IMG/VR virus record: IMGVR_UViG_3300045612_000538
Location: 1 to 54,507 of that record
Source of the DNA: a virus
Reading direction: 5' to 3' (one strand)
Length of the DNA stretch: 54,507 nucleotides
This document shows positions 15,868 to 47,938 of this stretch, in pieces. The translations under genes were made by a program, and so were the position numbers. The first letter of the stretch is position 1. Each line of letters opens with the position of its first letter. A model generated the notes under the pieces. The model was not told the DNA's origin and did not search any database. It saw only the letters and a list, made by a program, of their open reading frames with translations.

Positions 15868-16740
15868 ATGAATAGAGATATACATTTAATATATGAGAAT
15901 TATGTTAGATCTCGTAATCCAAACCTGTTAAATGAGTTGTCTCCAGTAGAAATGGAGGGCGGTATTGATGTAGGCCCTGTTGTAAACAAGACTTTGCCGG
16001 GGCAAGGAAAGCAATATGGCGCAGGGGCAATAAAGAAAGTAGCTGAAATACAGGGTAAATCAGAGAATGAAGTTGCTGAAGACATGGCTAAAACTATTAT
16101 AGCAAAAACTGGCGATAAAAAAGAAGTTAATGGCAAAATGGTGCATTATTTTTCTGGAGAACCGGATGCATTTATCAATAGCTTAGTACCAGAATTTAAA
16201 CAAAAATATGGTATAAGCCCTACTATGGCAAAATATACAATTAATTATATTTTAATATATATTCTTCATGCTAAAAAAACTTTGGGAGGGTTAGTCAAAC
16301 TAAATACTAAAAATATATCGAACCCTGAAACATTACCAGACCAGCCTGTTGTGGTCGATAAAAAATTTCCTACTGAAGAAGAAGGATACGAAAGCGGATT
16401 TATTTATTACAAAAATAATGAAGCTGTTCTAGAAGGAAAATTAAATGAAATTTTTAAGGGAATGAGCGATGAAATAGACGGCGATGATATGTCTACTTCT
16501 ATTAAGAAAAACATGATTATAGCTGGAGTAGATAGACGCCAGTTTTGGGATGTTGTTACAGGTTTATTAAAAAATAAGGCTTTTTTTGAAAGAAAAAAAG
16601 ATACTAGAATGCTTGATGATGTGGACGGGTTAGCTATCGGTCCAATACCTACATCTGATAGAGATATAGAGGATGCAATTAGGGAGCTACCTTCATATAA
16701 AGAAATGCTAAGACAGAAGTCAAGAGAAGCTATATATTAA
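15868..16740 (+). CDS. Virion-type protein with CTS-like N-terminus
   Basis: 290 residues, not recognised. The N-terminus MNRDIHLIYENYVRSR and following NLLNEL resemble a capsid-targeting segment with an LxE cleavage site near residue 23. The body is mixed charged, with one aromatic-rich helix (YTINYILIYILHAKK near residue 125). It is a lone plus-strand gene inside a long minus-strand block and has its own late box, consistent with late expression. It ends with an 11-base overlap against convergent queC. Confidence 0.75.
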   Translation: MNRDIHLIYENYVRSRNPNLLNELSPVEMEGGIDVGPVVNKTLPGQGKQYGAGAIKKVAEIQGKSENEVAEDMAKTIIAKTGDKKEVNGKMVHYFSGEPDAFINSLVPEFKQKYGISPTMAKYTINYILIYILHAKKTLGGLVKLNTKNISNPETLPDQPVVVDKKFPTEEEGYESGFIYYKNNEAVLEGKLNEIFKGMSDEIDGDDMSTSIKKNMIIAGVDRRQFWDVVTGLLKNKAFFERKKDTRMLDDVDGLAIGPIPTSDRDIEDAIRELPSYKEMLRQKSREAIY

Positions 16741-17467
16741 TTTTTTTACAGTTATTTTTCTCCCAAGGTATTTCAATTTTATATGGTAAAGGATCAATAT
16801 ATCCAGCATCTAGAAATCCCTTTATCCTAAGCGAACAAGCCGTACATTTACCGCATGCAATATTTTTACCTTCATAGCATGTCCAGGTTTTACTAAAATC
16901 GACACCTAAGCTAATACCCGTTTTAACAATATCTGCTTTTGATTTAGTTAGAAGAGGTGCAATAACTTCTATTTTAGTCCGTCGATTTAAAGAGGATAAT
17001 TCGTTTATTTTGTCTAAAAATTCCGGGCTTCCATCCCAGTATCCAGCGACACTATCAGCTTGCGCCGCTCCATGAATAATTTTTGCAGCATTATTACTCT
17101 CTGCATATGCAAGACAAATACTTAAAAGCATTATGTTTCTAAACGGTACATAATTAACTGTTTGAGGATCACCCATAACATTCTTAGCATAGGCTACTTT
17201 AATTTTTTTATTCGTTAAAGCACTAGTGCGGGCTATATCCTTAAAAAATGAAATTGGAACAATAGTATGATTTGTTTTTTTAGTACCATATTTTTCCCTA
17301 ACAGAATCAATTTGAAGTTTTGCACACTTCAACTCTTTTTTATGTTTTTGATCATAATTAAATGATATAGCATCTGTATGACTATAGATTTTGACTGCGT
17401 AATGCAGCAATACAGAACTATCCATTCCTCCGCTGACAGGAACTACAACTCTACTCAACCGGCTCAT
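16730..17467 (-). CDS. queC: 7-cyano-7-deazaguanine (preQ0) synthase QueC
   Basis: Converts 7-carboxy-7-deazaguanine to preQ0 with ATP and ammonia. 245 residues. The PP-loop is VSGGMDSSVLL at residue 12, and the C-terminal zinc site is CYEG...ACGKCTAC (residues about 198-215). YVPFRNIMLLS and GAAQADSVAGYWD are also typical. It overlaps the end of uvsX by 17 bases, so it is expressed with recombination genes. Its pathway partners FolE, QueD and QueE lie 17-21 kb away. Confidence 0.95.
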   Translation of the reverse strand: MSRLSRVVVPVSGGMDSSVLLHYAVKIYSHTDAISFNYDQKHKKELKCAKLQIDSVREKYGTKKTNHTIVPISFFKDIARTSALTNKKIKVAYAKNVMGDPQTVNYVPFRNIMLLSICLAYAESNNAAKIIHGAAQADSVAGYWDGSPEFLDKINELSSLNRRTKIEVIAPLLTKSKADIVKTGISLGVDFSKTWTCYEGKNIACGKCTACSLRIKGFLDAGYIDPLPYKIEIPWEKNNCKKINI

Positions 17468-29832: not shown

Positions 29833-31017
29833 ATGAGGCTTTTTGATGAATACTATTTTTTAGTAAACGAAAAAGCTAGTCTTCTTCATCCTTATTCATT
29901 ACCAAATATTACAACTGGTAATGATCTTGTACGTTTTTTTCAAGAATCTATATCATCAATTGAGAATGGCAAAGCTACCTTAAAGTTTGATGGTGTTAAC
30001 TGTTCATTAAGATTTCAAAATAATCAATTTGTTTTAGATCGTTTTTCCTTGAAAGACGAGGAAGGTATAACAGCAGATAAGTTATCTTCAAGATTTAAAG
30101 AAGGACATGGTCTTATTGATGCGGGTCAAACAATATTAAAAATCTTTAATAATTCTATTCCTAATATACAACAAGAGCTTCATGAGTTAAGAATGTTAGA
30201 AAAAAGTAATATTGTTTTAAATATAGAATTTATTCAAGGTACAACAAACGTTATAAATTATAAACACAATTATTTTGTTATACATAATGTATTAGAAATT
30301 TATGAAGCTTTTAGTCCGGTAAGAAAATCTAGAAGCAGAAAAGTTAGAGCTATAGATTATGATAAAAATTCTTTAGAAAGATTAGTAAAAAAAATAAATT
30401 TAGAAGCTAATAAATTCAATTTTAATGTGGTACATAGAGAAATAGTGCGTTTTTCTACTAAACCAGATTTAAATAAAATTTTAAATTCTAAATTAGACAT
30501 AAAAATAAATGAAGAAAATATTCAATCTGATACTTTAAAAAATCTGCTAGAAAAAGCAAAAAATACAAGCAACGTTATAGTAAAACTTTTTGATAAAAGC
30601 TCAGTTCGAGCTCTAAGCAGAAAGATATACCTTTTATTCGCAGGTGGTTACAGTATCGAGCAAATTTTACTAGATTTAAATAAAGTCCAAGCCGTTGTAG
30701 ATGGTATTGTCTTTTATCATACTACTATGTTCTTAGGACAAGAAATTTTAAACTGCTTGGTTTCTAATTTAGGGCCTGTAAATGAACAAGAAGGTATTGT
30801 TATTAATGATATAACTTTATCACACGTACCTTTTAAAATTACCGGCACATTTATGACAAGGAATTATTTTGAGAGTAAATTTAGAAATGAAGAAGAGGAA
30901 TATGGATTTAAAGGTTTTTATAATAATGTACAAAAAACTTTAGGAGTTCCTTTTACAGAACCCGAATACGGTAAGCAAAGTCCGCAATTAAGATTAACAC
31001 CGGGAATGGTTATATGA
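29833..31017 (+). CDS. KxDG (ligase-like) nucleotidyltransferase, probably packaged
   Basis: 394 residues. The core motifs of the covalent nucleotidyltransferase/ligase superfamily appear in order: motif I LKFDGVN with Lys51, motif III LNIEFIQG with Glu132, motif IV EGIVI at residues 320-324, and motif V PFKITG with Lys335. It would form a lysyl-AMP intermediate, as DNA or RNA ligases do. A long insert (about 140-310) separates III and IV. The N-terminus MRLFDEYYFLVNEKA looks like a capsid-targeting segment. AAAAGG before the ATG is a close ribosome site. Substrate unknown. Confidence 0.7.
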   Translation: MRLFDEYYFLVNEKASLLHPYSLPNITTGNDLVRFFQESISSIENGKATLKFDGVNCSLRFQNNQFVLDRFSLKDEEGITADKLSSRFKEGHGLIDAGQTILKIFNNSIPNIQQELHELRMLEKSNIVLNIEFIQGTTNVINYKHNYFVIHNVLEIYEAFSPVRKSRSRKVRAIDYDKNSLERLVKKINLEANKFNFNVVHREIVRFSTKPDLNKILNSKLDIKINEENIQSDTLKNLLEKAKNTSNVIVKLFDKSSVRALSRKIYLLFAGGYSIEQILLDLNKVQAVVDGIVFYHTTMFLGQEILNCLVSNLGPVNEQEGIVINDITLSHVPFKITGTFMTRNYFESKFRNEEEEYGFKGFYNNVQKTLGVPFTEPEYGKQSPQLRLTPGMVI

Positions 31018-31679
31018 ATACCTTTCAAGATTTTTATAATAAATCTCTTAAAAATAACTTAGTAGTTATATTTCCAGGTAGATTCCAGCCTTTTCATCCG
31101 GGGCATAAAAAACTTTATGATTATGCAAAAGAGCAGTTTCCTGCTGCAGATTTTAAAATAGCTACTAGCAATGTGAATAGAACCACAACATATGAAGATC
31201 CTCGATATAAAATAGATCCTGAAAGATACCCTTTTACGTTTGAAGAAAAGAAAAAAATAATTCAAGCGTACGGTATACACGAATCTGAAATACAGCTAAC
31301 AGCTAATCCGTATAAAGCTGTAGAAATTTTAAAAGATTATAAACCGGAATTTACCAAAGTTATCTTTATTGGTGGAAAAAAGAATGAAAGTGAATCTGAA
31401 GGTAAGCCTAGATTTAGCTACTCTGAAACGTCTTATTTTCAGCCATTTAAAAAATTAGAAGATCTACAGCCATTTGATCCAAATCATAATGGTCATGCAT
31501 ATATTTATGAACCCTTAACGCTTACGTTTAAATTAGGAGAACAAATAGTACAAGACGCAAGTCAACTAAGAAAAATGTATAAAGAAGCTGACGAACAAAC
31601 AAAAAGAAATTATATAAGAGAATTGTTAGGAGAGTTTAATAAAGAGATTTATGATTTATTTTCTTCTAAATTAAGTTGA
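31014..31679 (+). CDS. NMNAT/cytidylyltransferase-like protein, probably packaged
   Basis: 221 residues. The HxGH superfamily signature is FPGRFQPFHPGHKKLYDYAK at about residues 20-39, and a C-terminal IVQDASQLRKMY supplies the (S/T)xxR-type motif. Members transfer AMP or CMP to NMN, phosphopantetheine or sugar/lipid phosphates; NAD-type chemistry is most likely but not certain. The first residues MNTFQDFYNKSLKN resemble the packaging N-terminus. It overlaps the ligase-like gene by 4 bases, so the two should act together. Confidence 0.75.
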   Translation: MNTFQDFYNKSLKNNLVVIFPGRFQPFHPGHKKLYDYAKEQFPAADFKIATSNVNRTTTYEDPRYKIDPERYPFTFEEKKKIIQAYGIHESEIQLTANPYKAVEILKDYKPEFTKVIFIGGKKNESESEGKPRFSYSETSYFQPFKKLEDLQPFDPNHNGHAYIYEPLTLTFKLGEQIVQDASQLRKMYKEADEQTKRNYIRELLGEFNKEIYDLFSSKLS

Positions 31680-31896: not shown

Positions 31897-32511
31897 TTAG
31901 AGCTTTTTCTGTTCTATGACCTTGATAGTCTCAAAGAGTATTTTTTCTAAATTTTCTAAAGATTCTTTTTTTAATGAATTTTTCAAACTACTGATAACTT
32001 TCTCACTACCTTTATCAATAGCTGCGTAGAGTGATTCTTCATTATTCTCTTCAAGACTATTCATATCCATATTAAATTTCTGTCGGTATTTTTCGTAATC
32101 TTTATAAGCAAAAATTGAAGCTAAATTTTCTTGAGCTGTTGTGATTTTAGAAAATACCCAAGGTTCTAAATTTTCTTCATCTTTCAACAAATCATGAAGC
32201 ATAGCAGAAATTTTATGTATTCTAAAGAGCTCTTGTTTTGCCATAAAGGCACCAGTATCTTCCGAACCTCCTTCAAACCCTGATTCCGGTTCTATGCTTG
32301 TACCACATCTACATTCTTCACAATTTTCATCTTCACAAGTACATCCCTCTTCCCCTTCGCAAGCACATTTCTTTTTAGGGAGATTAATAACTGTAGGTTG
32401 TCTAGACCCTAACCCCACTTCGCTCTCAGCATTAGGACCTAAGCCAACGTTTTCCTTTACTACTTTTTGAGTATATAGCTCATTTAATAGTACAATGTCT
32501 TTCTCGAACAT
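31897..32511 (-). CDS. Cys-rich virion-type protein with CTS-like N-terminus
   Basis: 204 residues, not recognised. MFEKDIVLLNELYTQ has the packaging-type N-terminus with an LNE-L site. Residues 49-69 hold seven cysteines as CxC, CxC, CxxC and CxC among acidic residues (KKCACEGEEGCTCED then CEECRCG), a metallothionein-like metal site. The C-terminal half is helical. The ATG lies exactly at the expected +1 of the late box at 32517, so it should be leaderless. It is divergent from the 43-residue gene at 32549. Confidence 0.75.
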   Translation of the reverse strand: MFEKDIVLLNELYTQKVVKENVGLGPNAESEVGLGSRQPTVINLPKKKCACEGEEGCTCEDENCEECRCGTSIEPESGFEGGSEDTGAFMAKQELFRIHKISAMLHDLLKDEENLEPWVFSKITTAQENLASIFAYKDYEKYRQKFNMDMNSLEENNEESLYAAIDKGSEKVISSLKNSLKKESLENLEKILFETIKVIEQKKL

Positions 32512-32548: not shown

Positions 32549-32680
32549 ATGAAATCATTTAAAACGTTTTTTACAGAAAAAAAGAAAGCTCCGCGTGGTG
32601 TATGTTGGAAGGGTTATAAAATGGTCGGCCATAAAAAGAAAGGTGGCAAAACGGTTCCTAATTGTGTACCAAATAAGTGA
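32549..32680 (+). CDS. 43-residue basic peptide, packaged-type
   Basis: 43 residues: an aromatic N-terminus (MKSFKTFFTEKKK) with FTE-K as a possible cleavage site, then a basic body RGVCWKGYKMVGHKKKGGK and an end TVPNCVPNK. The WKGYKMVG and VPNCVP motifs resemble a short module I recall from T4-like marine phage proteins, of unknown function. Two cysteines are 21 residues apart. A late box precedes it and its TGA overlaps the GTG of the protease-like gene, so the two are coupled. Confidence 0.75.
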   Translation: MKSFKTFFTEKKKAPRGVCWKGYKMVGHKKKGGKTVPNCVPNK

Positions 32681-33324
32681 AAAATTTTCAGGATTTTTTT
32701 AATAGACCTGTACTTGGTGTCAATGAATTAATTGACATACAGGGTATTGGCAAAGTCAAGGCTAAAGTAGATAGCGGTAATGAAGGTTACAATGTTTTGC
32801 ATGGTATAGATATAAAGACAAGTAACGGTAAAATCACATTTACAACTGTAGATAACAAAACAGTAACATTACCTTTAAACGGGGATATGCAAATTCATAT
32901 TGGTAGTGGTGTAAAAGAAGACCGTCCTATGGTGAAGCTTTCATTCAGCTTGCTGGGTAAGACGTTTACCGAGCCATTTACAATTGCAGACCGTTCGGAA
33001 AATGAAGACCCGGTTTTAATTGGAGAACCATTTTTAAAAAAAATTAGAGGTTTAGTTGATGTTTCTAAAGAAATAAACGAATCTTTACAATACAAAGTAA
33101 TTGCAAAAAGAAATGATGAATTATCTAAAGCTTGGAATAAAAAAAAATATACAGAAAAAGAAATTAGAAAAATTGCTAACCGTCAGAAAGTTTTAATTAC
33201 AGATATAAAAGGTTCTCCGAAATTTAAAGGTAAAAATAAATTAAAAATAGTTAACCCATTAAATAAAAAATCATTTATTAAATTTAAAAAAGTTATCAAT
33301 AGCGACACCACAGAAACCGATTGA
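32677..33324 (+). CDS. Retropepsin-like protease (DUF785/RimB type), probably packaged
   Basis: 215 residues. Residues 17-135 match the retropepsin-like family once called ATP-dependent zinc protease (PF05618): ELIDIQGIGKVKAKVDSG with Asp32-Ser-Gly as the catalytic triad, RPMVKLSFSLLGKTF, and IADRSENEDPVLIGEPFL near residue 103. The first residues MKNFQDFFNRPV look like a packaging signal. The C-terminal 70 residues are very Lys-rich, perhaps for DNA or RNA contact. The GTG start overlaps the upstream TGA. It would be an aspartic protease; the substrate is unknown. Confidence 0.75.
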   Translation: MKNFQDFFNRPVLGVNELIDIQGIGKVKAKVDSGNEGYNVLHGIDIKTSNGKITFTTVDNKTVTLPLNGDMQIHIGSGVKEDRPMVKLSFSLLGKTFTEPFTIADRSENEDPVLIGEPFLKKIRGLVDVSKEINESLQYKVIAKRNDELSKAWNKKKYTEKEIRKIANRQKVLITDIKGSPKFKGKNKLKIVNPLNKKSFIKFKKVINSDTTETD

Positions 33325-33643: not shown

Positions 33644-34297
33644 TTAGATTAATTTTCTGTTCTGCGCAAACTCAATAAACTTATAAAACTCATTTCTCGA
33701 GTTATCATTATTATCTAGAAAGGCTCCGGACATCCGAGCAGTTCGCATAGTAGAATCATGACGAATACCACGGTTAGAACAGCATGTATGATTAGCTTCA
33801 ATCATGACTGCAACACCATTATTTTTCTCACAAACATTATTAATATAATCATGAATTTGCATTGTAAGATTTTCTTGAACTTGTGGGCGGCGAGAAAACC
33901 AATCTACAATTCGATTTAATTTACTCAATCCAATTACTTTTCCGTTCTTTGCAGGTATGTAAGCCACGTGTGCAAATCCCATAAAAGGAGCATGGTGATG
34001 TGAGCAAAGCGAAGTTAATTTAATATTTGTTTGTGCTACAATTCCATCATACTTGTCAATATTATCAAATGCTGTAACTTTGGGAGGCTCACTATAACAA
34101 CCCCAGGCAAAATCTTCCACAAAAGCTTTAGCAACCCGGTGCGGTGTATTTGAACTATTAGGATCATTTCTCCAGTCATATCCAAGCGCATCCATATATG
34201 CTTCATATGCTTTAGCTGCTTTATCTATAATTTCGTGCTTTTCTTGTTCGTTTACCGGGTGATTGTGGTTTGCAAAAGCTAATTTTTTTCTACTCAT
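33644..34297 (-). CDS. folE: GTP cyclohydrolase I
   Basis: First step from GTP (to dihydroneopterin triphosphate) for preQ0 or folate. From the ATG at 34297 it has 217 residues. Zinc ligands are visible in SLCSHHHAPFMG and in HTCCSNRG. NTPHRVAKAF, GLSKLNRIVDWFSRRPQVQE and the C-terminal RTARMSGAF are family landmarks. The open frame continues 52 codons upstream into unrelated sequence, so the internal ATG giving MSRKKLAF is the proper start. Confidence 0.95.
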   Translation of the reverse strand: MSRKKLAFANHNHPVNEQEKHEIIDKAAKAYEAYMDALGYDWRNDPNSSNTPHRVAKAFVEDFAWGCYSEPPKVTAFDNIDKYDGIVAQTNIKLTSLCSHHHAPFMGFAHVAYIPAKNGKVIGLSKLNRIVDWFSRRPQVQENLTMQIHDYINNVCEKNNGVAVMIEANHTCCSNRGIRHDSTMRTARMSGAFLDNNDNSRNEFYKFIEFAQNRKLI

Positions 34298-34332
34298 CTT
34301 TAATTTTTTAATATAATAGTACTGTTTTTCAA

Positions 34333-34340
34333 GATAAATA
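34333..34340 (+). promoter_or_regulatory. Late promoter box deciding the start at 34347
   Basis: GATAAATA. An ATG touches its end at 34341 and a second in-frame ATG lies at 34347, six bases after the box. Expected transcription starts at 34346, so only the second ATG would be in the mRNA. Confidence 0.65.
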
Positions 34341-34346
34341 ATGTTA

Positions 34347-34778
34347 ATGAAAGGTGATTCCTGTCTGACAAAATTGTTAGAATCTAGTTCTCTTAAGAAA
34401 ATTAGAATAAAAGTAGATCCTAAAGAAATTTCTAAAGCTACAGATTTTAGCAAGTGTAACGGATATGAAGGTTATATTTTAAGAGAAAAATTAGGTAAAA
34501 CAAAGATTATAGTTTTATCCCCGGATTTTCCAGTATTTGATGATATCCCGGTTGAATTTTTAGAAACCATTTTAAACGATCAGAACGTAGATATTGTAGA
34601 TGAATTTAAGTGCTTCGTACACGGTAAGCTGGAGATCAAGGACGGGGACCCTTTAATACAGTGTCTATCTAAAGCTGAAACAATTGAAGACATAGAAGCC
34701 GGTCTCCGTCAAAAAGGATTGGAACCACAGGCTATTTGTGAGCTTTACAGAGATTTTATTTCTAATGAGCAAGTTTAA
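34347..34778 (+). CDS. Hypothetical protein
   Basis: 143 residues, not recognised. It looks alpha/beta with a hydrophobic strand KTKIIVLSPDFPVFDDIP near residue 55 and a helical, acidic C-terminus (ETIEDIEAGLRQKG). The start is ATG 34347 rather than 34341 because of the late box. It overlaps the next gene by 14 bases and is presumably its operon partner. Confidence 0.65.
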   Translation: MKGDSCLTKLLESSSLKKIRIKVDPKEISKATDFSKCNGYEGYILREKLGKTKIIVLSPDFPVFDDIPVEFLETILNDQNVDIVDEFKCFVHGKLEIKDGDPLIQCLSKAETIEDIEAGLRQKGLEPQAICELYRDFISNEQV

Positions 34779-35745: not shown

Positions 35746-36378
35746 ATGAAATATCAGAGTACAAAAATAATTGAACTTGGTAGTTGTGCATTCCGTCAAT
35801 GGAGAGCTGAAAGTCATTGTAAATTTATACACGGATATCGGCTTACAGCAAAGTTTTGGTTTTTTTGTAATGAATTAGACGATAAAGGTTGGGTTGTAGA
35901 TTTCGGTGCATTAGATAACTTGAAAAGCGAGCTACAAAAAATGTTTGATCATACAACTTGTATTGCTTTAGATGATCCATATCTTAAAGAATTTGAAAAT
36001 TTAGCTAAGCTTGGTATTGTTGATTTAAGAGTCTTTCCTTACGGCGTTGGTATTGAAAAGTTTACACGAGAAGCATTTAATATTGCAAACAAAAATGTTA
36101 AAGCAATGACAAATGATCGTTGTTGGGTAACGAGAGTAGAAATGTGGGAGCATGAAAAAAATTCAGCTATATATGAAGAAGCAACAGCCATTACATCTAT
36201 TTCAGTTGGCTCACCAGTACCTGCGATGGTATCTAACTCTGCAGCAGGAGATACATTACAGGAACAACCTCAAGTCAATAACCCGGTAGCTGATAACCCC
36301 CGGGCAGCTCCTTTATATACAAAAAAGAGTTCTGGATATAGTAATTTATTTGGTGGTACTAGTTGGGGAAATAAATGA
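35746..36378 (+). CDS. queD: Divergent QueD (6-carboxytetrahydropterin synthase) with C-terminal extension
   Basis: Second step of preQ0 synthesis. 210 residues; the PTPS/QueD core is residues 1-150. It reads SCAFRQWRAESHCKFIHGYRL where typical QueD has AAH...C...LHGH. The catalytic Cys and one His are kept, but the first Zn His is replaced by FRQW and the last by Tyr. DDKGWVVDFG and FDHTTCIALDDP are conserved. Residues 150-210 are an extra Ser/Asn/Pro-rich tail. TATAATTA lies five bases before the ATG, so it too looks leaderless. Confidence 0.85.
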   Translation: MKYQSTKIIELGSCAFRQWRAESHCKFIHGYRLTAKFWFFCNELDDKGWVVDFGALDNLKSELQKMFDHTTCIALDDPYLKEFENLAKLGIVDLRVFPYGVGIEKFTREAFNIANKNVKAMTNDRCWVTRVEMWEHEKNSAIYEEATAITSISVGSPVPAMVSNSAAGDTLQEQPQVNNPVADNPRAAPLYTKKSSGYSNLFGGTSWGNK

Positions 36379-37423: not shown

Positions 37424-38167
37424 ATGAATGAAAATTCTTACATTTTTTTAAGTGATGATAGAATTTTTTATACTATTGAAGGGGAGGGTGAGTATGTAGG
37501 GAGACCTTCTGTTTTTATGCGATTATCTATGTGTAATCTTACATGTAGAGGGTTTGCATCATCAGATTCACCTCATGGTTGCGATAGCTTTATTAGCTGG
37601 TCTGTAAAAAATCGTATGACTTTTGATGAAATTTTTGATTACATGTCACAAAATAGTTATAACTGTAATTTAAAAGACGGTGCTATATGGAAGATAACTG
37701 GGGGTGAACCTCTTATTCAACAAAAAAATCTATTAGGATTAGTACAAGCCTTTAAAGATCGATATGGCTTTACACCTCATATCGACTTTGAAACAAATGC
37801 TACTATTATGCCCGATTCAGAATGGAAAGATAAATGGGGTGCAACGTTTACAACATCTCCAAAGCTTTCTAACAACGGTGATCCTGTAGAGAAACGCTAT
37901 AAGCCTGAAGTATTAAAATGGCATGCTAAAAATAATTCTGGTTTTAAATTTGTAGTTAGCGGTGAAGATGAAGTAAAAGAAATATTAGAAAAATACGTAT
38001 ATGAGTGTATTGTACCGGTAAATCGAATATGGCTTATGCCTTGTTGTGGAAGCCGCGAAGAACATACACAACAAAGTTCGATTGTTGCAGATTTATGTAA
38101 GAAATATAATTTTAAGTTTAGTCCGAGGTTGCAGTTAGTTATTTGGAATAAAGCACTTAAGGTTTAA
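37424..38167 (+). CDS. queE: 7-carboxy-7-deazaguanine synthase QueE
   Basis: Radical SAM enzyme, third step of preQ0 synthesis. 247 residues. It shows FYTIEGEGEYVGRPSVFMRL, the typical QueE opening, then cysteines as C-x3-C-x11-C (CNLTCRGFASSDSPHGCD), a stretched version of the usual CxxxCxxC. ITGGEPLIQ is the SAM-binding GGEP motif and IDFETNAT follows. The stretch between the last cysteines occurs in known QueE variants. The 3' end overlaps the convergent methyltransferase by 11 bases. Confidence 0.93.
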   Translation: MNENSYIFLSDDRIFYTIEGEGEYVGRPSVFMRLSMCNLTCRGFASSDSPHGCDSFISWSVKNRMTFDEIFDYMSQNSYNCNLKDGAIWKITGGEPLIQQKNLLGLVQAFKDRYGFTPHIDFETNATIMPDSEWKDKWGATFTTSPKLSNNGDPVEKRYKPEVLKWHAKNNSGFKFVVSGEDEVKEILEKYVYECIVPVNRIWLMPCCGSREEHTQQSSIVADLCKKYNFKFSPRLQLVIWNKALKV

Positions 38168-39853: not shown

Positions 39854-40563
39854 AAGAATTTTGTAACTTTGTATTTAAATCCAAGATTAAAATTCAATCT
39901 ATGAGCCTGGGTGTGATATACATCGAATGAAAAGCAGTTGTTTGCCGCGGGTAAAATATTAGTAACGTATAGTGTACCAGAAAGTAGGGGCATTACTGAA
40001 GTATAAGCAGGATTTAAAACTAAATTAATATCAGCTTCAAGAACATCTGTATAAGCTAAATTTGCAGGTAAAGGATTAGAAACTGTTACTGTTTGATATT
40101 GATTGTTAGATTGTATTATACCAGTTCCATAAGCAACATAAACGCTAGTAAAAATATTATCTAAATAAGAAGTAACGGCCGGAACAAAATTAGTTTTTAT
40201 ATCATTGTATTCAGGTGAACCAACAATATAATCTGCACTCATACAAATACCACCTGTGTATATAAACTTATTATAATAGCTGTTTACCAAAGATGCACCT
40301 GTTCGTCCATTTGAACAAAAATTATTTGCTGAAATATTAGCTGCTAAAGTAATTGAGTTTGCAAAAATATCTTGCGCACAAGTAGTGCCCATTATAGTGG
40401 CATTTTTACCTGTATCTGTCTTTACAACATTTAAATTCTCAAACGTTATTGTGTTGGTACCTTGTTCTGTCTGTACTATAAGTAAGTCCCCCTCCACCAA
40501 TTCGGGAACTGCAGGGAGTTGAGAAATATTAACAAAATTACTATTTGACGCGTTGATTGCCAT
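39850..40563 (-). CDS. Putative structural (fibre-like) protein
   Basis: 237 residues. The N-terminal pattern NFVNISQLPAVPELVEGDLL then IVQTEQGTNTITFENL is typical of phage structural fibre or decoration proteins I have seen annotated. The rest is Asn/Thr/Ser/Val-rich with beta-strand alternation and repeated AAN elements. Cysteines are few and scattered. Its ATG is seven bases downstream of TATAAATA, as expected for a late structural gene. The exact role in the virion is unknown. Confidence 0.65.
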   Translation of the reverse strand: MAINASNSNFVNISQLPAVPELVEGDLLIVQTEQGTNTITFENLNVVKTDTGKNATIMGTTCAQDIFANSITLAANISANNFCSNGRTGASLVNSYYNKFIYTGGICMSADYIVGSPEYNDIKTNFVPAVTSYLDNIFTSVYVAYGTGIIQSNNQYQTVTVSNPLPANLAYTDVLEADINLVLNPAYTSVMPLLSGTLYVTNILPAANNCFSFDVYHTQAHRLNFNLGFKYKVTKFF

Positions 40564-40569
40564 CTATAG

Positions 40570-40577
40570 TATTTATA
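40570..40577 (-). promoter_or_regulatory. Late promoter box
   Basis: Exact TATAAATA (followed by CTATAG) on the minus strand, six bases before the ATG at 40563. Confidence 0.75.
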
Positions 40578-40597
40578 TTAAAATATTAAAAGCCCAT

Positions 40598-41416
40598 ATG
40601 AATAAAATCGGTGTAGGTATAGTTACATGTAATCGGCCTACATTCTTTCTTAAAAGTTTAATGAGTATACCCGATTCAATTACAGATATTGTCGTGGTTA
40701 ATGATGGTGATGACTTCGCTGATATTGACAAATTATATAAAAAGAAAAGTTTTATGTATCTTCATAACAGTACAAATTTAGGTGTAGGTAAATCAAAAAA
40801 TAAGTTAATGCGTTATTTATTGAGTAATAATTGTGATCATATTTTTATTATAGAAGACGATATTGTTGTTAAAGATCCTGAAGTGTTTAATGCATATACT
40901 AAAGCTAGAAATAAGACTGGTATTCAACATTTTAATTTCGGCTATCACGGTCCTGCTAATAAAGCAGGTATTTCTGGAGGCAAGCCAGTTCCAAGATTTA
41001 TAGTAGATTATGGGGATATCAAAATCGCAATTAACATGCATAGTGTAGGTGCTTTTTGTTATTATACAAAAGAAGTGTTAAATAAAGTTGGTTTAATTGA
41101 TGAAGATTATACTAATGCTTTTGAGCATGTAGATCATGATTACAGAATTGCAAAAGCTGGCTTTGGTACACCTTATTGGAATTTTGCTGATATAGCAAAT
41201 AGCTGTGATTATCTAGAAGAAATAGAGTGCTCAGAACACAGTAGTGCTATACGCCCTAGAAAAGATTGGCAGAAAAATATTCAAGAAGGTGCATTAATAT
41301 TTCAAAAGAAACATGGATATTTACCCTCATGGCAGAACGCTGTACCCGATACACCACAAGATACGGTCAAAGAAATTTTAAAAGTCATTTATAAGAAACA
41401 TGCAATCCGAACTTGA
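40598..41416 (+). CDS. GT2-type glycosyltransferase
   Basis: 272 residues. GVGIVTCNRPTFFLKSL opens a GT-A family 2 fold, with TDIVVVNDGDD, NLGVGKSKN and IIEDDIVV as the DxD-like metal site. VDHDYRIAKAGFGTPYW is the acceptor-side motif. It is the first gene of the eight-gene glycan operon. The ATG at 40598 gives MNKIG; longer frames upstream run through the late box of the divergent gene and are rejected. Confidence 0.8.
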   Translation: MNKIGVGIVTCNRPTFFLKSLMSIPDSITDIVVVNDGDDFADIDKLYKKKSFMYLHNSTNLGVGKSKNKLMRYLLSNNCDHIFIIEDDIVVKDPEVFNAYTKARNKTGIQHFNFGYHGPANKAGISGGKPVPRFIVDYGDIKIAINMHSVGAFCYYTKEVLNKVGLIDEDYTNAFEHVDHDYRIAKAGFGTPYWNFADIANSCDYLEEIECSEHSSAIRPRKDWQKNIQEGALIFQKKHGYLPSWQNAVPDTPQDTVKEILKVIYKKHAIRT

Positions 41417-42149
41417 TATTTTAATTCCTGTTTCAATTGATCACGAGGATAGACTGAGAAACTTGTCTATAGTTTTAAACTATTTAACCAAAGCTAGGTT
41501 TAAAAATGTATATGTTCGAGAATATTATAAAGAAGAACCTAAGGCTAAAAATTTACTACAACAATATACTCAATATAAATACACTTCTTTTAAAAATGAA
41601 AAGGATTATTTTAATAAGATGAAATGTATTAATGAATTGTTTGATTTTACTAGCAATCAAATTGCTTGTTGGTATGACGTCGACGTATTAGTAAATAAAA
41701 AAAGTCTTATTGATTCAATAATATTGATTAAGGAAGGTAAATATGATATTGTTTACCCTTATGATGGTAAATTTTATGATATATCTGCAGAAACCGTTAA
41801 AAAACTAGTAACTGATTTAAATACACCTATAGAACTTAAGGAATGTATTTTATTCAATAAAAGTTCTTGGGGAGGATGTGCCGTATTTTCTAGCAATGCT
41901 TTCTTAAGAGGCGGTAAATGTAATCCTAATTTTAAAAATGTTGGTTATGACGATGATGAATTTTTAATGCGGTTCAGACGTCTTGGATTTAACATTGGTA
42001 GAACTGATGGTGTATTATTACACCTAAATCACTTTAGAGGTAACACATCGTTTAATTATAATGACTATACGCAAGATAATATTAATGAAGTTACAAAAGT
42101 TACACATATACCTCTTGAAGAATTAAAACAGTATATTAAGAAATGGTAA
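41400..42149 (+). CDS. GT-A glycosyltransferase, GT7-like C-terminus
   Basis: 249 residues. DILIPVSIDHEDRLRNL at the start and IACWYDVDVLV near residue 95 give the donor-binding DxD. WGGCAVFSSNAFLRGGKCNP then YDDDEFLMRFRRLGFNIGR match the galactosyltransferase 7 C-terminal motif, which favours a galactose or hexosamine donor. It overlaps the upstream gene by 17 bases. Confidence 0.72.
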   Translation: MQSELDILIPVSIDHEDRLRNLSIVLNYLTKARFKNVYVREYYKEEPKAKNLLQQYTQYKYTSFKNEKDYFNKMKCINELFDFTSNQIACWYDVDVLVNKKSLIDSIILIKEGKYDIVYPYDGKFYDISAETVKKLVTDLNTPIELKECILFNKSSWGGCAVFSSNAFLRGGKCNPNFKNVGYDDDEFLMRFRRLGFNIGRTDGVLLHLNHFRGNTSFNYNDYTQDNINEVTKVTHIPLEELKQYIKKW

Positions 42150-42994
42150 TGATTACAGCTCGATTAAAAGGCGGATTAGGTAATCAAATGTTTCAAATAG
42201 GAACAGTATTAGCGCTTGCTAAAAAATTTAAAGATAATTATGGTATTGATTATAACATAAAACATTATTCCGGTCAGGGTTTTCCACATCTTAAATATAA
42301 AGACAATATTTTTAAAAACATTCCTATTATAGATTTCAAAGTAACCGATTTTAAAGTATATAATGAGCCAAAGTTTAATTATGTAGAAATACCGAAAACA
42401 AAGGAAAACCTTATAATTGATGGATACTTTCAAACACAAAAATATTTTTTAGATTTTAAAGAAGATGTAAAAAATATGTTTTATTTTGACCCGTCTTTAA
42501 AAGAGGCTGTAGATAGAAAAGTAAGATCTATAAAAAATGTAGCTGAAAAAAATAAAGTTACAGTTATGCACGTGCGTAGAGGAGAATATACTCTTCTTCC
42601 TAAAATACACCCCGTACAGCCTTTAGAGTTTTTTAATAAAGCTTATGAAATTTGTAATGACGGAGATACTTGTTTCATCATCATAACCGACACACCGGAT
42701 TGGTGTAGGTATAATTTTAAACAAAAAAATGTCTTTTTCTTTCAATCAGGATTTAACTTTTTTCATGACCATAAAGGCGGGGGTCTAAGCGAGTTATATG
42801 ATCTGTATATAGCATCTTCTGCAGATAAAAATATTATTTCTAATAGTTCGTTTGGCTGGTGGGGTGCATATCTTGGCAAACCAAAAGAAAACGTTATTTG
42901 CCCTCGTCATTGGTTTGGAGAGAGTGTATGGTTTAAACCTACCAATTGGAAGGATTGGGAAGATATATTTGTTGATGGTTGGGAGATATTATGA
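42143..42994 (+). CDS. GT11 alpha-1,2-fucosyltransferase-like
   Basis: 283 residues. Family GT11 landmarks: ARLKGGLGNQMFQIG at the N-terminus, HVRRGEYTL (donor GDP-binding His-x-Arg-Arg) near residue 144, and SNSSFGWWGAYLG near residue 232. It should move L-fucose, or a related GDP-L-sugar, to a 2-hydroxyl. The start is ATG 42143 or 42149. Coupled to the preceding gene by overlap. Confidence 0.88.
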   Translation: MVMITARLKGGLGNQMFQIGTVLALAKKFKDNYGIDYNIKHYSGQGFPHLKYKDNIFKNIPIIDFKVTDFKVYNEPKFNYVEIPKTKENLIIDGYFQTQKYFLDFKEDVKNMFYFDPSLKEAVDRKVRSIKNVAEKNKVTVMHVRRGEYTLLPKIHPVQPLEFFNKAYEICNDGDTCFIIITDTPDWCRYNFKQKNVFFFQSGFNFFHDHKGGGLSELYDLYIASSADKNIISNSSFGWWGAYLGKPKENVICPRHWFGESVWFKPTNWKDWEDIFVDGWEIL

Positions 42995-43830
42995 AAAATA
43001 TTTTAATTTTAGGATCTGAAGGACAAATTGGTAAGCCGCTAGAGGAATATCTAAACACAAAAGGATATAGAGTTGTTGGGCTCGATATAACAAAATCTGC
43101 TTATCATGATTTGAGAGAGTATGATAATTCTATTATTAGTGGTTATATAAAAAATACTGACTTTGTTTATTTTTTAGCGTTTGATGTAGGGGGGTCAAGA
43201 TACTTAAAAGAATATCAATATACGTATGATTTTATTGATAATAATACGCGTATAATTGCAAACACATTTCATTTTTTGAGATTATATAATAAACCATTTA
43301 TTTTTGCTTCTAGTCAAATGTCTAATATGAGTTACTCTCCTTACGGCGTTACTAAAGCTTTAGGAGAATATTACGCAAAGAATTTAAACGGGAGAATCGT
43401 TAAATTTTGGAATGTTTACGGCATAGAAAATGATATGGCCAAAGCGCATGTAATAACGGATTTTATTTTAAAAGCAAAGCACAATAATATTATCGATATG
43501 ATGACAGATGGCCAAGAAGAGAGACAGCTTTTATACAGCGAGGATTGTTGTAAGTGCTTAGAAATTGTTGCTAATAACTTTGATAAAATTTCAAAAGACA
43601 AAGAATTACATATAACTAATTTTGAGTGGTTTAAAATTATTGATGTTGCTTACAAAATAGCGAATCTGTTTCCTGGCACAACAGTTATACCTTCGACTAA
43701 TAAAGACACGGTACAGTTAAATAAAAAAAATGAACCTGATCCTTACATTTTAAATTTTTGGAAGCCAGAAGTAACTATTAATGAAGGTTTAGCCAAAATT
43801 TCCTCCTTTTATAAGAATAGTAATTTTTAA
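42991..43830 (+). CDS. NAD-dependent sugar epimerase/dehydratase
   Basis: 279 residues from the ATG at 42991, chosen because GGGAG lies just upstream. The Rossmann motif is ILGSEGQIGKPL, and the SDR catalytic Tyr/Lys are in YSPYGVTKALGE after IFASSQMSN. The C-terminus (NFWKPEVTINEGLAK) is of the nucleotide-sugar epimerase type. The sugar is not readable; in an operon with GDP-sugar enzymes, a GDP-hexose substrate is likely. Confidence 0.8.
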   Translation: MKNILILGSEGQIGKPLEEYLNTKGYRVVGLDITKSAYHDLREYDNSIISGYIKNTDFVYFLAFDVGGSRYLKEYQYTYDFIDNNTRIIANTFHFLRLYNKPFIFASSQMSNMSYSPYGVTKALGEYYAKNLNGRIVKFWNVYGIENDMAKAHVITDFILKAKHNNIIDMMTDGQEERQLLYSEDCCKCLEIVANNFDKISKDKELHITNFEWFKIIDVAYKIANLFPGTTVIPSTNKDTVQLNKKNEPDPYILNFWKPEVTINEGLAKISSFYKNSNF

Positions 43831-43868
43831 GCTATTGAAGTTTATATTTTTTTAGTAATATATATAAC

Positions 43869-44615
43869 ATGGATAATCTAATTCTTGGTCAGCAGTGGGG
43901 CGGGTTAGGAGATAACCTTCAATTTTCGACATTGCCTGAGCTTTATAGTAAGGTAAACAAAGAAGTATATATATCCTCAAGCAACGTAGTAAGAAATACC
44001 GAAATAAAAGAAATAGTATGGGATAAAAACCCTTTTATAAAAGGAACTTTAAATTTATCTCAGAATATTGGCGGTCATTTATTTTACTCTATTCCTAAAA
44101 GTGCATGGGAAAAAAAATGTAACATAATAAAAAAATGGGAGCTTGTTCACGGCTTTAATTCTGATGATGATTTTCCTTTACCTAAAATTTATTACAAACC
44201 TAATTTATTAGAAGCTTATTCTAATAAAATTGTAGCGGATTTTACTGCTACCACTTTAAATGAGCATTATAGTAGTGATTTATCTGTAATTAAAAATTAT
44301 ACTTTAAAAAACTATAATAAAAACGATTTCTTTATTTTACGACCATCTTCTAAAAATATTCAAAAACAATCATTAGCTAAATCTAATTTTGAACATCAAG
44401 TTGTTGAGTATAGTAATATTTTTGAATATGCAGATATTATTTTTTCTGCTAAAAGATTTGTATGTTTCTACAGTGGTGGTATGGTTTTAGGATCTGCCCT
44501 AAGAAAAAGTGATATAGACTGTATATTTCCGCCTCACCCGGATTATTACATAGAACATGAAATGCCTTATTATTATTTTCCAAATGTAAAATATATAGAA
44601 ACACTTAAAAAATGA
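43869..44615 (+). CDS. Putative glycosyltransferase, GT-B-like
   Basis: 248 residues. ILGQQWGGLGDNLQFSTLPE at the start resembles the Gly-rich opening of GT9/GT-B enzymes, and RFVCFYSGGMVLGSALR near residue 195 resembles their donor-site loop. It lacks a classical signature, so the class is tentative. A short AT-rich region precedes it, then overlaps couple all following genes. Confidence 0.55.
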   Translation: MDNLILGQQWGGLGDNLQFSTLPELYSKVNKEVYISSSNVVRNTEIKEIVWDKNPFIKGTLNLSQNIGGHLFYSIPKSAWEKKCNIIKKWELVHGFNSDDDFPLPKIYYKPNLLEAYSNKIVADFTATTLNEHYSSDLSVIKNYTLKNYNKNDFFILRPSSKNIQKQSLAKSNFEHQVVEYSNIFEYADIIFSAKRFVCFYSGGMVLGSALRKSDIDCIFPPHPDYYIEHEMPYYYFPNVKYIETLKK

Positions 44616-45235
44616 TAGAAAACTATGAATTAATGCCTACCGGTGCTATAAAGCAAGTAAATATAAAACCGTTTAAATATGATTATGAGTATATAGAAAA
44701 GTCTTTTAATAAAATAGATAATAATTCTATGTCTTGCTTAAGGATTGGAAATATTTTAGGTACTATAGGCTATATACCTCAATCCTTACTTGATGTGGGT
44801 TATGGCAATGGCAATTTTTTAGAGTGGTGCTCGAAGATTATTCCTAACTGTTATGGTAACGATATTGAGCCAGCTTATCCATTACCGGAGCACATAAAAT
44901 TTGTTAATAATATTACTGATCAGTTTTATGAAGTAATTACTTTTTTTGATTGTTTAGAACATTTTGCTTCTATTGATTTTTTTAATGATTTAAAGTGTAG
45001 ATGGTTGGTGATAAGCTTACCATGGTGTCATTATTTTTCTGATGATTGGTTTAGATCATGGAAACATAGAAAAGTCGATGAACACATTTGGTATTTTAAT
45101 GATGATTCGTTAAGACAGACGTTAGAGCAATATAATTTTACATTAGTAAGATCAAACAATATTGAAGATACTATAAGAAAGCACGAAGCTTATCCTAATA
45201 TCTTGACACAAATATTTTTAAAAAATGAAACTTAA
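44612..45235 (+). CDS. SAM-dependent methyltransferase (Methyltransf_23-like)
   Basis: 207 residues. SAM motif I is SLLDVGYGNGNFLEW near residue 59, followed by GNDIEPAYP and ITFFDCLEHF (motif IV with DCLEH, as in sugar methyltransferases of this class). SLPWCHYFSDDWF follows. It likely methylates a sugar of the glycan made by the operon. It overlaps both neighbours by 4 and 11 bases. Confidence 0.8.
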   Translation: MIENYELMPTGAIKQVNIKPFKYDYEYIEKSFNKIDNNSMSCLRIGNILGTIGYIPQSLLDVGYGNGNFLEWCSKIIPNCYGNDIEPAYPLPEHIKFVNNITDQFYEVITFFDCLEHFASIDFFNDLKCRWLVISLPWCHYFSDDWFRSWKHRKVDEHIWYFNDDSLRQTLEQYNFTLVRSNNIEDTIRKHEAYPNILTQIFLKNET

Positions 45236-46088
45236 AATTGTTCAAGATAATTCTGCTTGTGGCCTTGGTTCTACAATTTTAAGAGTTATTCATAATTTAC
45301 AGTATATTCAAAACGACGATCTTTTATATTTTGAAATGAGAAACCTTTTATATTCAAGCAAAGGAAATACTTGGAATAAATTTTTTCACCAGCCTTTTGA
45401 AGATAAAAAAAATGAAATAGAATATTTATTTAACAAGGGAGAATACGAAATTATAACACGTTGGTATAAATGTGGTAATTTTGTTTTAGATTATGCTAAA
45501 GATCAAAATAAAGACCAATTTTTAGATCGCGAATTTGTTGATTCGATACGTAAAATCACAAGAAAATATTTAAAAATTAAAAAAGAAATATCTGGTATAG
45601 GTAATTTTTTTGTCAAAAACAACTATGGTATGCAAAATGTTTTATCTATTCACAAAAGAGGTACAGACCATTTTGTTACAGGGGGACATGCAGCAGGACA
45701 AAAATATTTAATGGATTATAAAGCTGTGATTAAACCAGCTATAGAAAAAGCTTTAAAAGAAAATAAATGCGACAAGATATTTTTAGCTACAGACGAGCAA
45801 GAAACATATGATAATGTAAAAAATGATTTTGGCAGTATAGTTTTAAAATATAACACAGAGCTTATGCCTACAGGTTCAGACGGTGGTCTTCATTATTCTA
45901 ATGCTTATAGTGATGACGCTAAAAAATATAAATTAGGTGTAGATATGCTCACGGATGTTATTATAATGGCTTCTTGCAAATACAGTCTGTGTATGAGAAG
46001 TAATGTTTCTTTTTTAAATATTCTACTTCGGGATAATTACAATTATGAATTTATTGACAACCATATTGATTATGGAAGATGGTATTGA
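45225..46088 (+). CDS. Fucosyltransferase-like (GT23/NodZ or O-FucT type)
   Basis: 287 residues. The strand LSIHKRGTDH near residue 140 carries the His-x-Arg-x-x-Asp GDP-fucose-binding motif, and KIFLATDEQETYDNVKNDFG near residue 184 matches the ATDD-type motif of NodZ/FUT8/O-fucosyltransferases. ADVLTDV-like MLTDVIIMASCKYSLCMRSN resembles the conserved Ser/Asn end. Donor is likely a GDP-L-sugar; acceptor unknown. Confidence 0.72.
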   Translation: MKLKIVQDNSACGLGSTILRVIHNLQYIQNDDLLYFEMRNLLYSSKGNTWNKFFHQPFEDKKNEIEYLFNKGEYEIITRWYKCGNFVLDYAKDQNKDQFLDREFVDSIRKITRKYLKIKKEISGIGNFFVKNNYGMQNVLSIHKRGTDHFVTGGHAAGQKYLMDYKAVIKPAIEKALKENKCDKIFLATDEQETYDNVKNDFGSIVLKYNTELMPTGSDGGLHYSNAYSDDAKKYKLGVDMLTDVIIMASCKYSLCMRSNVSFLNILLRDNYNYEFIDNHIDYGRWY

Positions 46089-46106
46089 TTATGGAAAGGT
46101 TAGATA

Positions 46107-46949
46107 ATGATAAAAGTAAACTTATTTGATGGTACGTTCGGACATTCTTTAAATGAGAATGGGTTTCTAACTTCTACAAAAGATAGAAAACCTACGTTAA
46201 TTTCATATAAAGAAAAATTAATGTCTTATGATGGTATAACTGTTTTTAGTGATGAATATATGTACAGTGATTTTCCCGAACAGGTCAAAACAAAAACTAA
46301 GGTTGGATGGTGTATTGAATCGCCTGGTGTTAAACCTCAAGTTACGCAAAATTTAGAAAAAATAGATAACCGGTTCGATTATATCATCACCTTTAGAAGA
46401 GATTTAATTGAAAAAAATCCAAAAAAATATCTACCGGCTATTGTTGGTGGTACTTGGATAAACGAAAATGATCATGGGTTATATAAAGATGAAAAATCTA
46501 AAAATTGTTCTATTATACTTTCAGGTAAATCCTTTTTACCCGGACAGCAATTAAGACATGCAATTTATCGTCAAGTACAGGGTATAGATGCATTTGGCGG
46601 TGGTACTAAAACCGGACACATATTCGATAAATTAGATTCTTTAAAGAACTATAAGTTTACTTTTGTTATCGAAAACTGTCAATACTATAATTATTTTACA
46701 GAAAAACTTATAGATGCTTTTGTAACAGGCTGTATACCTATATATTGGGGCTGTCCTAATATAGGTGATTTTTTTGATTTAAAAGGATTAATTTTGTTTA
46801 ATAGTTTAACTGATATTAAAAAGCTAAAACTATCTAATAATTATTTTATTGAAAGGTCAGTTAATATTAAAAATAACTTTAAAAAAGCACAAGAGTACCT
46901 CTCTTCGGATGATTCTTTAGCTAAAACAATAAAAAAATATATTTTATGA
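46107..46949 (+). CDS. GT10-like alpha-1,3-fucosyltransferase
   Basis: 280 residues. The GT10 C-terminal motif is clear: FTFVIENCQYYNYFTEKLID then AFVTGCIPIYWGCPNIGD, near residue 190-222. The N-terminal half is variable as usual. It should transfer L-fucose or an L-fucose-like sugar. GGAAAGG lies about ten bases upstream as a ribosome site, in contrast with the leaderless operon-first genes. Confidence 0.85.
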   Translation: MIKVNLFDGTFGHSLNENGFLTSTKDRKPTLISYKEKLMSYDGITVFSDEYMYSDFPEQVKTKTKVGWCIESPGVKPQVTQNLEKIDNRFDYIITFRRDLIEKNPKKYLPAIVGGTWINENDHGLYKDEKSKNCSIILSGKSFLPGQQLRHAIYRQVQGIDAFGGGTKTGHIFDKLDSLKNYKFTFVIENCQYYNYFTEKLIDAFVTGCIPIYWGCPNIGDFFDLKGLILFNSLTDIKKLKLSNNYFIERSVNIKNNFKKAQEYLSSDDSLAKTIKKYIL

Positions 46950-47938
46950 AATATGCATTAGTATGTGGCGCAGGTGGTTTTATTGGAAACCATTTAGTAA
47001 ATAAATTAAAAGATCTTGGTTACTGGGTAAGAGGAGTAGATTTAAAATCTCCAGAATTTAGCAGTACAAATGCAGATGATTTTATTGTAGGTGATTTACG
47101 AGACAGACAAATAGTAAAAGATAGTTTATATGTATTGAAAGATAGCAATACAAACAGTAAAGAAATTTATGTAGATGAAATATATCAATTAGCTGCTGAT
47201 ATGGGCGGAGCAGGATATATTTTTACTGGTGATCATGATGCCGATGTAATGCATAATTCTGCATCGATTAATTTAAATGTTGTTGATCTGGCTACTAAAT
47301 TTAAAGTTAAAAAATTATTTTACAGTAGTAGTGCATGCATGTATCCGGAGCATAATCAATTGGACCCTGATAACCCAAATTGTGAAGAAAGCTCTGCATA
47401 CCCAGCTAATCCAGACAGCGAATACGGTTGGGAGAAATTATTTAGTGAACGTTTATATTTAGCTTATAAGCGAAATTATGGGTTAAACGTAAAGATTGCT
47501 CGTTTTCATAATATTTTTGGCCCGCTCGGCTCATGGAATAACGGAAAAGAGAAAGCTCCCGCTGCTATTTGTAGAAAAGTGGCCCAAGCAGTTGACGGGG
47601 GCGAAATTGAGATTTGGGGAGACGGTAATCAAACGAGAAGCTTTTTGTATGTTGATGAATGTTTAGATGGGATTATTAAATTAATGGAATCTAATTTTGA
47701 AGGCCCTGTAAATATAGGATCTGAAGAAAAAGTTTCTATTAATCAATTAGTAAATATTGTTTCTAAAATAGCAGGTAAAACTTTAATTAAAAAGCATATT
47801 AAAGGGCCTACAGGAGTAAGAGGTAGAAATTCAGATAATAAACTGATTAAAGAAAAAGTTGGATGGGCACCATCTCAACCTCTAGAAGTAGGCCTTAGTA
47901 AAACGTATGCTTGGATCAATAAAATGATATATGTATGA
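46946..47938 (+). CDS. GDP-mannose 3,5-epimerase
   Basis: Converts GDP-D-mannose to GDP-L-galactose (and GDP-L-gulose). 330 residues. NAD-binding GAGGFIG lies at 8-14; QLAADMGGAGYIFTGDHDAD, SSSACMYPE with Cys131, YGWEK with Tyr160/Lys164, ARFHNIFGPLGSW and KEKAPAAICRK with Lys203 match the plant enzyme, whose catalytic Cys and Lys are the equivalents. TRSFLYVDECLDGI closes the domain. It overlaps the fucosyltransferase by 4 bases, so GDP-L-galactose may feed the operon's transferases. Confidence 0.9.
   Translation: MKYALVCGAGGFIGNHLVNKLKDLGYWVRGVDLKSPEFSSTNADDFIVGDLRDRQIVKDSLYVLKDSNTNSKEIYVDEIYQLAADMGGAGYIFTGDHDADVMHNSASINLNVVDLATKFKVKKLFYSSSACMYPEHNQLDPDNPNCEESSAYPANPDSEYGWEKLFSERLYLAYKRNYGLNVKIARFHNIFGPLGSWNNGKEKAPAAICRKVAQAVDGGEIEIWGDGNQTRSFLYVDECLDGIIKLMESNFEGPVNIGSEEKVSINQLVNIVSKIAGKTLIKKHIKGPTGVRGRNSDNKLIKEKVGWAPSQPLEVGLSKTYAWINKMIYV

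Follow-up and report, generated by a model that had tools for sequence, protein, structure and literature searches.

What is the function of a RimB-like protein that is encoded by a T4-like phage, opens with a T4 internal protein-like sequence and stands apart from any RimK ligase? This question is raised by positions 32677-33324 of the IMG/VR virus record IMGVR_UViG_3300045612_000538, a 54.5-kb stretch of viral DNA that was analysed over its whole length (54,507 nucleotides) and is called the window here. The record belongs to the T4 superfamily, with a T4-type portal protein (PF07230) and a gp32-like protein, and its DNA polymerase is ~30% identical to the polymerases of cyanophages, Pelagibacter phage Mosig and others. 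Our analysis indicated that the gene almost certainly encodes a retropepsin-like protease. That this protease is a head-packaged and injected poly-glutamate (poly-Glu) endopeptidase, an "eraser" retained in the absence of its "writer", is a composite proposal that we give about an even chance. The features of the gene are as follows.

32677-33324, + strand: retropepsin-like (PF05618/DUF785) protein of 215 aa with a GTG start (open reading frame, Pfam, ortholog, profile, AlphaFold2 model)
32677-32706, + strand: N-terminus MKNFQDFFNR, similar to the T4 capsid-targeting sequence (CTS) of IPI/IPIII, with a short helix at residues 4-8 of the model
32764-32778, + strand: active-site motif K30-V-D32-S-G34
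32923-32925, + strand: R83, equivalent of the poly-Glu contact R114 of RloA (aligned to 9g58 R94)
32992-32994, + strand: R106, equivalent of the poly-Glu contact R137 of RloA (aligned to 9g58 R117)
33073-33321, + strand: basic C-terminal region with 23 Lys and Arg against 9 Asp and Glu in 83 residues, kept in one subclade only
32549-32680, + strand: 43-codon gene MKSFKTFFTEKKKAPRGVCWKGYKMVGHKKKGGKTVPNCVPNK, whose last 4 bases are shared with the protease start (13 synonymous and no non-synonymous differences to the L002 locus)

The protease gene, its fold and its active site

The open reading frame (ORF) and its translation agree with an earlier note on this DNA in the coordinates and the K30-V-D32-S-G34 motif, and ADRSENEDPVLIGEPFL lies at residues 104-120. 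The start codon overlaps the stop codon of the 43-codon gene (GTGA), and both the GTG start and the overlap are kept in the L002 ortholog, whose product shares 84% identity across the full 215 residues. Differences between the two protease genes fall at codon positions 1, 2 and 3 in the numbers 27, 16 and 91. The region is a real gene under strong purifying selection and not a chance ORF. The small upstream gene, which the earlier note had also pointed out, is likewise real and constrained, since all of its 13 differences from L002 are at third positions; besides L002, a related module occurs in L167, and the gene was undetected at most other loci with a stand-alone protease. Its C-terminal CWKGYKMVGHKKKGGKTVPNCVP module recurs within many larger phage proteins (phrog_4359, 9737, 28131, 22379 and 727), and the window version is approximately the bare module behind a CTS-like start. 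The Lys-rich tail noted earlier is present in the window protein and is predicted to be ordered (predicted local distance difference test score, pLDDT, mostly 76-94), but it is confined to the subclade of the window, L002, L089, L090 and L092 and is not a family-wide trait.

The protein matched PF05618 with an E-value of 7.6e-6 and 26.3 bits, slightly under the gathering cut-off of 27 bits, whereas the relatives L004 (50.8 bits) and L005 (70.7 bits) scored above it. While PHROGs offered no useful family for the protease and a single-protein scan of viral contigs found two near relatives only, alignments reached further ones, and a profile of 32 viral relatives matched RloA (9g58), RloA2 (9g59) and Lpg0085 (2pma), the three solved DUF785 proteins, with E-values of 2e-15 to 9e-14. 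Moreover, the AlphaFold2 (AF2) model, computed for the monomer with a pLDDT of 89, had 2pma, 9g59 and 9g58 as its top structural matches (Z 17.2, 16.9 and 16.1 over 117-124 residues), but reached Z values of only 9-10 against retroviral (HIV-type) proteases. Because the Pfam, profile and model matches agree, the core of the protein is retropepsin-like.

Conservation was counted over 35 phage domains that are distinct at the 80% identity level. In this set, D32, G34, R83, R106 and L114 are invariant, and K30 is present in 34, the exception being Leu in Yersinia phage YerA41. The DUF785 core with a catalytic Asp that the earlier note had read from the letters is thus borne out by profile, predicted fold and the invariance of this residue. 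Neither outcome that the note had listed as contradicting it, a missing PF05618 match or a missing catalytic Asp in the relatives, was seen. RloA coordinates poly-Glu through K46, R114 and R137 around the catalytic D48, and cuts reporters with at least 8 Glu (PMC12239564). In the alignment to 9g58, these four residues correspond to K30, R83, R106 and D32 of the window protein, and the two arginines are 23 residues apart in both proteins. RimB strips Glu tails from ribosomal protein S6 and requires D31 to do so, it also stimulates the ATPase and poly-Glu synthesis of RimK, and a bacterial RimBK hybrid cleaves poly-Glu as well (PMC11957791). Since the RloA contact residues are kept and RimB and RloA offer precedents, poly-Glu endopeptidase is the best-supported activity, and the window protease is probably specific for poly-Glu. 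The RimB-type specificity suggested earlier thereby gains indirect support from the coordinating residues. A search of the ORFs of the window for an encoded poly-Glu substrate found no Glu run longer than 4, which is consistent with a substrate made post-translationally.

Relatives with and without a RimK ligase

Scans of viral contigs revealed three architectures. The retropepsin stands alone in the window, L089-L096, L100-L103, L105-L107 and L165-L168; it follows a RimK ATP-grasp domain in Pelagibacter phage Mosig (E-value of the RimK domain 1.2e-37) and many other contigs; and it ends proteins of ~680-735 aa composed of a nucleotidyltransferase (NTase), RimK and retropepsin in phage contigs L097-L099, L104 and L108-L110. 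The RimK-type proteins of cyanophages align to the ligase part only. The RimK family PF08443 was found in 0 of 17 records with the stand-alone form, two of which are as long as 139.6 and 107.7 kb, and it was detected in all four fused controls. As the records are fragments, this absence is not established for any individual genome.

Phylogenetic analysis with cellular DUF785 proteins as the outgroup united the D[ST]GN proteins of T4-like phages in one group (support 99/95, and 100/99 in a second tree), and all sampled cellular members with a readable motif have DTGA or DSGA. The stand-alone proteins form one clade (93/89), which is apparently nested among the fusions beside the triple fusion L097, though an alternative tree with the fusions as one clade was not rejected (approximately unbiased test, p 0.099). 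Loss of the RimK ligase from this lineage, with retention of the protease, is the most parsimonious explanation. We also considered whether the NTase and retropepsin genes of the window arose directly by the splitting of an NTase-RimK-retropepsin protein, but the NTase of the window is only distantly similar to the fused ones (20-27% identity). Apart from these, stand-alone DUF785 proteins that carry DTGA or DSGA occur in L004/L131/L133 and L005/L149/L154/L157, in some cases in huge phages; they have no CTS-like start and fall among the cellular proteins in the phylogeny. Fusions of RimK with a DUF785 domain at the C-terminus have been known from marine phages since 2008, through Global Ocean Sampling data (Monier 2008, PMC2530865). 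For the stand-alone, writer-less form and the triple fusion, we found no earlier report in the open-access literature.

N-terminus, proposed role and alternatives

The first residues of the window protein, MKNFQDFF, are similar to those of T4 IPIII (MKTYQEFIAEA) and IPI (MKTFKEFTST) in the T4 record. IPI is injected, and a CTS brings foreign proteins into T4 heads (PMC9958956). A CTS-like motif fitted to these T4 internal proteins was carried by 19 of the 26 distinct retropepsin proteins; its background frequency was 51 of 309 among the other ORFs at these loci and 26 of 870 among internal windows. Because the motif was fitted in this way, the p value of 2.8e-9 should be taken as indicative, and it does not account for relatedness. 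It begins 10 of 11 stand-alone proteins and 9 of 10 RimK fusions. Two earlier versions of the motif matched 18 of the 26 retropepsins, with 36 and 26 matches respectively among 355 other ORFs, and did not pick up the window protein, which has an Arg at the last position of the motif. Similar N-termini are found on neighbouring proteins (NTase, ligase-like and Cys-rich) or on relatives of these, and a motif that precedes such different domains favours a targeting role. In addition, YerA41_066, a fused relative, bears the annotation "structural protein", and liquid chromatography-tandem mass spectrometry identified 63 virion-associated proteins of YerA41 (PMC7354516). Judging from its N-terminus, the protease is probably packaged and injected. 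The head packaging put forward in the earlier note accordingly finds its footing in this enriched resemblance, while packaging as such keeps the standing of a prediction.

We propose that the protein is a homodimeric aspartic endopeptidase of the RimB/RloA kind, specific for poly-Glu chains. Its N-terminus of ~10 residues would serve as a CTS through which the protease co-assembles into the prohead core, and the enzyme would then leave the head together with the ejected DNA. Once in the cytoplasm of the host, it would trim, as a dimer, glutamate chains placed post-translationally by RimK-type ligases of the host, with S6 or some other polyglutamylated protein as the likeliest substrate, so that the ribosome or other target would be shifted to the unmodified state as infection starts. 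S6 itself as the main target is a tentative and rather doubtful choice.

Several observations weigh against this proposal, and some of them favour other explanations. The residue after D-[ST]-G is Asn in 27 of the 35 phage domains including that of the window, but Ala in RloA and all sampled cellular relatives. This D[ST]GN site throughout the T4-like phage clade, together with a shorter flap region (51 residues from the catalytic Asp to the first Arg, against 66 in RloA), may reflect a changed, non-poly-Glu specificity towards another host or phage protein; the conservation of all three poly-Glu contact residues and the identical spacing of the arginines make this unlikely. The N-terminal motif is not exclusive to the family, as 16.5% of the other ORFs carry it, and it is present in 0 of 5 NTase-RimK-retropepsin fusions and does not match YerA41, counted among the RimK fusions. 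No T4-type L/I-x-E cleavage site is evident in MKNFQDFFNRP, although the consensus of the phage's own protease may differ, and only ~10 residues precede the domain. The YerA41 virion preparation also contained polymerases and replication and transcription enzymes, which points to possible carry-over (PMC7354516). Given the frequency of the motif and the lack of an evident cleavage site, the protein might instead be a poly-Glu retropepsin that is made after infection and acts unpackaged in the cytoplasm, its N-terminal helix being an interaction or assembly element common to the phage's proteins. We regard this as the likeliest of the alternatives but still improbable, in view of the strong resemblance to T4 IPI/IPIII, the occurrence of the motif on stand-alone and RimK-fused forms alike, that is, ahead of differing domains, and the structural annotation of the YerA41 relative.

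RimB boosts the ATPase and poly-Glu synthesis of RimK (PMC11957791), and sister phages carry covalent RimK fusions, so the window protein could have kept chiefly this second role, binding and stimulating a RimK-type ligase of the host to yield free poly-glutamate or altered S6 modification. We consider this quite unlikely, as the catalytic Asp and the poly-Glu contacts are kept although the sampled records are without RimK. Retropepsins mature retroviral virions, and with a possible location in the head, the protease might cleave head proteins during virion maturation. The earlier note had likewise allowed for the processing of virion parts. This is disfavoured and the least probable of the alternatives, very improbable in our judgement: five sister records with the stand-alone form encode a T4-type S77 prohead protease at another position, the domain is otherwise tied to RimK ligases and not to head genes, and the binding site is of the poly-Glu type. 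The Pfam scan of the window protease gave PF05618 and one chance hit, and no match to the S77 family PF03420.

If an injected poly-Glu endopeptidase is indeed present in these phages, it would be a new enzymatic activity among injected T4-type internal proteins. We suggest, as a possibility somewhat short of even, that T4-like phages inject a deglutamylase which, in the first minutes of infection, removes RimK-type poly-glutamylation from proteins of the host, with writer-only (cyanophage RimK), fused (Pelagibacter phages) and eraser-only (window lineage) forms making this modification, on the ribosome or on some other host protein, a contested point in infection. The role of S6 poly-glutamylation in the cell is still poorly understood. 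An eraser that is kept while its writer is apparently lost, and that seems to be loaded into the head, would make the S6 question directly testable, with a small enzyme, a known substrate class and a defined moment, namely injection.

Neighbouring genes and known systems

The order RNA-ligase-like gene, NTase gene, Cys/Glu-rich gene (on the opposite strand), retropepsin gene and GTP cyclohydrolase I gene is kept in most close relatives. The first three are as follows.

29833-31017, + strand: covalent nucleotidyltransferase, RNA-ligase-like, whose relatives start MITFKQFLLEGG, with invariant K51/D53/G54, E320-G321 and K335 (KxDG, EG and K motifs)
31014-31679, + strand: NTase (CTP_transf_like, PF01467; Pfam) with the CTS-like N-terminus MNTFQDFY
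31897-32511, - strand: Cys- and Glu-rich divergent protein conserved beside the protease (neighbourhood comparison)

The RNA-ligase-like protein had no Pfam match and resembled T4 RNA ligase 1 weakly in a Foldseek comparison; because its relatives open with MITFKQFLLEGG, it may be another packaged enzyme. The NTase superfamily is the one also fused to RimK-retropepsin in L097, L104 and L108-L110. In L095, L096 and L100, the relative of the Cys/Glu-rich protein is encoded on the same strand as the protease and immediately upstream. Elsewhere in the window, a gene set of the preQ0 (7-deazaguanine) pathway, consisting of QueC (16730-17467), GTP cyclohydrolase I (33644-34453), a QueD-type 6-pyruvoyl-tetrahydropterin synthase (35746-36378) and a 4Fe-4S QueE-like protein (37424-38167), suggests modified DNA or queuosine supply. 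A run of predicted sugar genes at 40553-47938 (+ strand), among them genes for a GT11 glycosyltransferase and for a nucleotide-sugar epimerase/dehydratase, is also present in this T4-like phage.

Among known systems, RimB of Pseudomonas fluorescens shares with the window protein the DUF785/PF05618 family, the catalytic Asp, the poly-Glu contact residues and the predicted retropepsin fold. In contrast to RimB, the window protein is phage-encoded, has a CTS-like N-terminal extension, a DSGN site and a basic C-terminal region, and its lineage is without a RimK partner in its records. RloA, RloA2 and Lpg0085 are the closest solved folds and have the same K/D/R/R set; however, the RloA proteins are located in the periplasm, contain a disulfide and have a longer flap, whereas the window protein lacks Cys and shows no evident signal peptide. 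The marine phage RimK-DUF785 fusions (Monier 2008, PMC2530865; Mosig_00005) belong to the same D[ST]GN retropepsin clade and start with a similar motif, but they are joined to an ATP-grasp ligase. YerA41_066, the relative with the structural annotation, differs in being fused and very divergent (a long branch), with Leu at the K30 equivalent and an N-terminus off the motif. Finally, T4 IPI and IPIII, of which IPI is injected, share the MKT[FY][KQ]EF-type N-terminal sequence, but their bodies are unrelated and are not proteases, and a cleavage site of the IPIII type is not evident in the window protein. The window protein would combine a start like that of a T4 internal protein with the catalytic core of a RimB-type enzyme.
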